Of a stretch of 64,000 nucleotides of DNA, positions 1,031 to 3,251 are shown piece by piece. The DNA lies in the NCBI RefSeq assembly GCF_000161795.2, contig NZ_CP006882.1, positions 868,001 through 932,000 of the forward strand. The letters are read 5' to 3'. This DNA is from Synechococcus sp. WH 8109. Its GTDB lineage: Bacteria > Cyanobacteriota > Cyanobacteriia > PCC-6307 > Cyanobiaceae. The notes below the pieces were generated by a model. That model saw only the letters and a list, made by a program, of their open reading frames with translations. It searched no databases and was not told where the DNA came from. The number at the start of each line of letters is the position of its first letter. Within the stretch, counting starts at the first letter, position 1. Position numbers and translations under genes: made by a program.

Positions 1031-1175
1031 TTGTTCCTGGTGTTTCCCTCAATTCCCGGAGCGGATCTGTCCCTGTTCCACCAGCTCAACAGGGAACTCG
1101 GTGCCATCTGTCAGGAGCCACCCGCTCAGGCCATCAGGGTCTGTCGCCTTCATGCCCGCCTGGTGAACGGCTGAG

Positions 1176-1711
1176 TCAGCGCTCGTCCGGCACCACACCA
1201 CAGGCAACCCGTGCACCACCTCCACCGAGGGGGGCTCGTCCCTGTAGGTGTCGCCGCCTGCATGAACAATCAGTGCTTTCCCCTTCAGGTCAGCTGTGCT
1301 GAGCCGTGGCGCCACCACGCTGGTATTGGTCTTGCCGTCGCCATCCACCACCAGCCTGCTGAGATCGCCTCGGTGACCGTTTCCGAAGGGGCCGAGGTGT
1401 TGACCCGTTTCGTCAGGGTCCCAGTGACCTCCGGCAGCCAAGCCGGCAACAGCTTTGCCCTCATCGGTTTCGCCCACTTCACAGCTTCCCGTGCTGTGGA
1501 GATGGAAGCCATGTTCCCCAGGGCTCAGCCCCGCCAGATCGGGATAAATCACCAGGCCCTGGTCGGTGTCTTGCACTGTGACGCTGCCGATCGATTCGCC
1601 AATGCCCATGGCATCAATGCGTTGCAGGGTTACCTCCAGAGCTCCGCACCAGCTTGGAGTGAGCGTGAGCAGGCTGATGAGCAGAACGAGCTGGGCGAGC
1701 AGGAGACGCAT
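1176..1711 (-). pseudogene. sodC: Cu/Zn superoxide dismutase, frameshifted C-terminus
   Basis: Periplasmic Cu/Zn superoxide dismutase, which converts superoxide to peroxide and oxygen. Counting from ATG 1711: signal peptide at about residues 1-23, copper ligands in HLH (70-72), bridging and zinc ligands in GGHWD (96) and the following GQH and NGHRGD, then VHAGGD (150-154). Just after GDTYRDEPP the frame breaks inside a run of six C. The expected ending LGGGGARVACGVVPDER, with the active-site Arg and the disulfide Cys, is present in the next frame and stops at 1178-1176. In the actual frame translation runs on to 1049 with unrelated residues. One missing C would explain the break, by mutation or sequencing error. 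As written, the product lacks the catalytic Arg and the structural disulfide. Confidence 0.85.
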
Positions 1712-2836: not shown

Positions 2837-2851
2837 TCAGCTCTGCTGAGA

Positions 2852-3251
2852 TCAGTTTCGTGATTTCACCACCGTCATACCGACGGGGGTCAGGGCAATC
2901 AAAGCCAGCTTGATGTGCTGAATGCCAAAGGGAATGCCGAAGATCGTCACAAAACAAGCCAGTGCACTGCTGAGGTGACCCGGGGCCAGCCACCAGCCGG
3001 CCACAAACCAGATCACATTGCCGAGCGCACCCGGGGGGCTGTTCCCAGATCACCTCGTCCCCTGAGCTGACGACGGCTCACGGCCTAGGAGCCGAAGGGC
3101 CAGAGCTAGAAACAGCCGACCCCCCAGCACGACCTTGCCCATGGCATCCAACGATAGTGATGGCGCAGATGAATGCGGACAGCCACCAGGCCAGAGCCAT
3201 GGGAAGTTAGCCGAGAACAACCCAGAGCAGGTTGAGGATTATCGAGATCAT
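2852..3251 (-). pseudogene. yccF: YccF family membrane protein, degraded
   Basis: Reading the minus strand from ATG 3251 gives MISIILNLLWVVLG, then a TAA, then LPMALAWWLSAFICAITIVG. After a frameshift comes PWARSCW, with further in-frame stops, and LWPFGS. A second shift restores NVIWFVAGWWLAPGH and IFGIPFGIQHIKLALIAL, ending KSRN at 2852. These pieces match in order the two repeated halves of the YccF/DUF307 inner-membrane family. At least three stops and two shifts make this a dead gene rather than a sequencing artefact. It lies between two intact genes. Confidence 0.85.

Follow-up and report, generated by a model that had tools for sequence, protein, structure and literature searches.

A one-base shortfall in a cytosine run of sodC in Synechococcus sp. 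WH 8109: a possible recent null allele or a sequence error

We analyze a 64,000-nucleotide stretch of the genome of Synechococcus sp. WH 8109 (hereafter, the window), in which the superoxide dismutase (SOD) gene sodC leaves its reading frame at a run of six C near its 3' end. In either case, null allele or sequence error, the lesion is an ordinary one: a single C is missing from a homopolymer of an otherwise normal gene. The reading that we put forward, at little better than an even chance, is that sodC is an ordinary periplasmic Cu,Zn-SOD gene with a real and very recent null allele in the sequenced strain or culture. A serious rival, whose probability falls somewhat short of one half, is that the gene is normal in the strain, with a run of seven C from which an assembly or base-calling error dropped one base in the published sequence. 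A literature search found no published description of this sodC.

A Pfam profile search matched the minus-strand open reading frame 1711..1049 to Sod_Cu (PF00080) with an E value of 2.2e-23, covering profile positions 3-117 of 133 only; in most relatives of the same genus, the match runs to profile position 131-133. On translation, the family sequence continues to ...HAGGDTYRDEPP, ending ...GDTYRDEPP, after which SVEVVHGLPVVWCRTSAD... runs to a stop near 1049. An earlier note, made from the letters of the window, had the gene leaving its family frame at exactly this point, and the partial match and the translation both bear it out. The DNA at the junction reads GAG CCC CCC TCG GTG GAG. The canonical tail lies intact in the next frame, as had been proposed: the frame from 1232 gives PLGGGGARVACGVVPDER and a stop, relatives L003 and L004 have the same tail and stop, and the run sits inside the interval (1218-1235) to which the note had pointed. 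This match is not due to chance, because the out-of-frame tail follows the family over 18 codons and each of the eight aligned relatives has one more base at the junction. The note was also right that the metal ligands are kept while the catalytic Arg and the C-terminal Cys are lost. Five motifs (HGFHLH, GGHWDP, GQHLGP, GHRGDL and IVHAGGD) are present and align to E. coli SodC, and the C-terminal GGGGxRxACGV, with the active-site Arg and the disulfide Cys, is missing from the assembled frame and intact one frame over (Table 1).

Table 1. Features of the sodC locus and of the nearby yccF-like gene, in window coordinates
Feature	Position	Strand	Remarks
sodC 5' part, original frame	1229..1711	-	signal peptide, first disulfide Cys (C77), all metal-ligand motifs
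Run of six C (six G on the plus strand)	1229..1234	-	one base short of staying in frame; frameshift point
Canonical tail, next frame	1176..1232	-	PLGGGGARVACGVVPDER and TGA, intact; carries active-site Arg and C-terminal Cys
Aberrant extension, assembled frame	1049..1228	-	SVEVVHGLPVVWCRTSAD...QIRSGN, then stop
yccF-like gene, pseudogene-like	2847-3251	-	PF03733 in relative G033; TAA, two one-base deletions (3040, 3147), 3-base deletion (3006)

Close genomes carry the sodC locus at the same position, with DNA identities of 88-94%. Comparison with sister strains, which the earlier note had proposed, fell out as expected for a one-base shortfall, with the extra base present in 8/8 aligned relatives. 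Seven C are found in L003 and L004 (GAGCCCCCCCTNGGTGG) and also in G033, and a search of 58 other related genomes gave no instance of the exact six-C sequence. The two Pro codons differ between relatives (CCC CCC, CCA CCC, CCC CCT and CCT CCC). We ruled out a programmed frameshift site, since the run is not kept as a slippery sequence among relatives: several of them break it with synonymous codons, and all are in frame. Some full-length SodC might still be made despite the lesion if ribosomes slipped by -1 on CCC CCC or if transcription slipped on the C run, which we regard as very improbable. The frame of the tail would be regained if the P-site Pro tRNA moved back by one base on C CCC TCG, and upstream change is still mostly synonymous. 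However, the lack of conservation and the in-frame reading in relatives, which need no slippage, rule out an evolved frameshift element, and polymerase slippage generally calls for a longer run than six C.

Under the null allele that we favor, the run probably had seven C originally, and replication slippage is the simplest way for one to have been lost. Translation departs from the family fold after residue 161, so that in the assembled product of 220 aa 59 residues unrelated to the family stand in place of the final beta strand, with its active-site Arg and disulfide Cys. We predict that such a protein would be unstable and inactive. We give the least credence of all to the proposal that, with the aberrant tail, SodC is a functional new variant whose C-terminus is altered. 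The metal ligands are kept and the extended reading frame is open, but the tail is simply the normal 3' end and the sequence downstream of it read out of frame, and it lacks the strand, the Arg and the Cys that are seen in solved SodC structures; relatives keep the canonical tail.

Over the 160 intact codons of sodC, the branch leading to this genome carries 4 non-synonymous and 7 synonymous changes, compared to 1 and 6 for G033, and the tail shows no damage beyond the missing base. These branch changes are mostly synonymous, and the lesion, if real, is very recent. The same observations can be read in two ways. One base fewer than in every aligned relative, with tail and stop otherwise intact, counts in favor of a real lesion. 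On the other hand, the loss of a single homopolymer base before an immaculate tail and a perfectly preserved stop is a textbook mark of base-calling error, seven C are seen in G033, L003 and L004, all close relatives, and the branch changes (4 vs 7) give no sign of long-standing sodC decay.

Frameshifts elsewhere in this assembly were surveyed over 400 kb, set against the corresponding parts of three complete relatives. Most of the many broken open reading frames in a first survey proved on translation to be shadow ORFs, and the survey was redone on ORFs with third-position bias (~210 kb, 216-226 genes per comparison). About three frameshifted genes (TerB-like, sodC and yccF) in these ~210 kb of conserved genes are backed by two or three references; the few further gene-breaking shifts have single-reference support or lie at gene ends. 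By the same method, the three complete relatives have one to about three frameshifted genes each, some at gene starts. Among the ~90-100 G/C runs of at least six bases in conserved genes, the sodC run alone has a frame-breaking change, and over all shared DNA, 3/117 such runs have a length change specific to this genome (genome coordinates 807090, 868787 and 869229). Conserved genes in this assembly thus show no general tendency to frameshift, and this gives a slight tilt toward a real sodC lesion. The earlier note had suspected a one-base homopolymer error: the one-base shortfall in the run is there, and the evidence neither establishes nor overturns the suspicion of error.

The surroundings of sodC also bear on both readings. 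Single-base deletions specific to this genome occur at window positions 785, 910, 3040 and 3147, with a 3-base deletion at 3006, and the one-base differences at 785, 910, the sodC run, 3040 and 3147 fall inside 2.4 kb. Such clustering near sodC favors an error, since a short stretch of poor sequence could have produced it; we noticed the pattern after the fact. Substitution rates were used to check for low quality over a wider area, and this was rejected, there being no elevation around sodC: genome-specific substitutions amount to 4.9% in yccF, 4.4% in the small ORF region 740-1010, 2.8% in sodC and 2.6% elsewhere in the window, and the rate is not raised in sodC or in most flanking genes. 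In yccF, the TAA stands in frame where relatives read GGA, a two-base substitution, and the flanking genes are intact. Random base-calling errors would not prefer such lesions, whereas a damaged gene near sodC between intact ones is as gene decay would give. The lesions and raised substitutions near sodC are consistent with local decay of genes bordering a variable region.

That variable region (G000:C1, genome coordinates ~814000-862000) lies before the window, is less similar in sequence to three relatives and rich in indels, and borders the cluster of broken genes. The TerB-like gene (~862085-862513, ~5.5 kb before the window) has a one-base insertion specific to this genome; its assignment comes from a weak Pfam match in G033, below the cut-off. 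In the small ORF region (YDLIIERGGSIVVDTIDACDEDAAWRAGL), one-base losses specific to this genome are seen near 785, beside a run of eight G, and at 910, and the region is partly deleted in relatives L002 and L091. A pattern scan of viral contigs gave no matches.

The earlier note had further argued that loss of extracellular superoxide defense would matter to the strain, and this carries little weight. Its proposed check for other SODs turned up an intact Ni-SOD, free of stops, and no Fe/Mn-SOD in this genome. Among 19 high-quality genomes of the genus (this one counted), Ni-SOD is present in all, a Sod_Cu match in 15 and none in 4; a search of the genomes without a match, run with no positive control, found no sodC remnants. 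By this distribution, sodC is accessory in the genus and probably dispensable. Its loss would be tolerated because Ni-SOD remains and sodC appears dispensable. In WH7803, sodC shows only a faint stress response (PMC7393227), but that strain has Fe-SOD and is not reliant on Ni-SOD. It is conceivable, and on balance doubtful, that the lesion is real and fixed in the lineage, forming part of the stepwise loss of a small neighborhood that comprises the TerB-like gene, the small ORF, sodC and yccF, leaving the strain on Ni-SOD alone, as in Prochlorococcus.

If the recent null allele is real, WH 8109 would be a marine Synechococcus with a naturally inactivated sodC and no SOD found besides Ni-SOD, and hence a tool for studying the role of the periplasmic enzyme. 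A caution applies to surveys of gene content: the truncated gene still clears the Pfam cut-off, and a profile match alone would score sodC as present here.

Among characterized proteins, the bacterial periplasmic Cu,Zn-SOD of E. coli (SodC, PDB 1eso) belongs to the same family as WH 8109 SodC over residues 27 to 161, sharing the metal-ligand motifs and the first disulfide Cys. An intact homologue aligns to 1eso through the R-x-ACGV end, whereas the alignment of the window protein ends at residue 161; the PLGGGGxRxACGV tail with its Arg and Cys, present in 1eso and in relatives, is absent from the assembled product. A further close comparison is with the marine Synechococcus genomes G033, L003 (an uncultured Synechococcus MAG) and L004 (Synechococcus sp. 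MU1642), which have the same sodC locus, tail and stop codon at 90-94% DNA identity and differ at the run, where they have seven C in frame and this genome has six.
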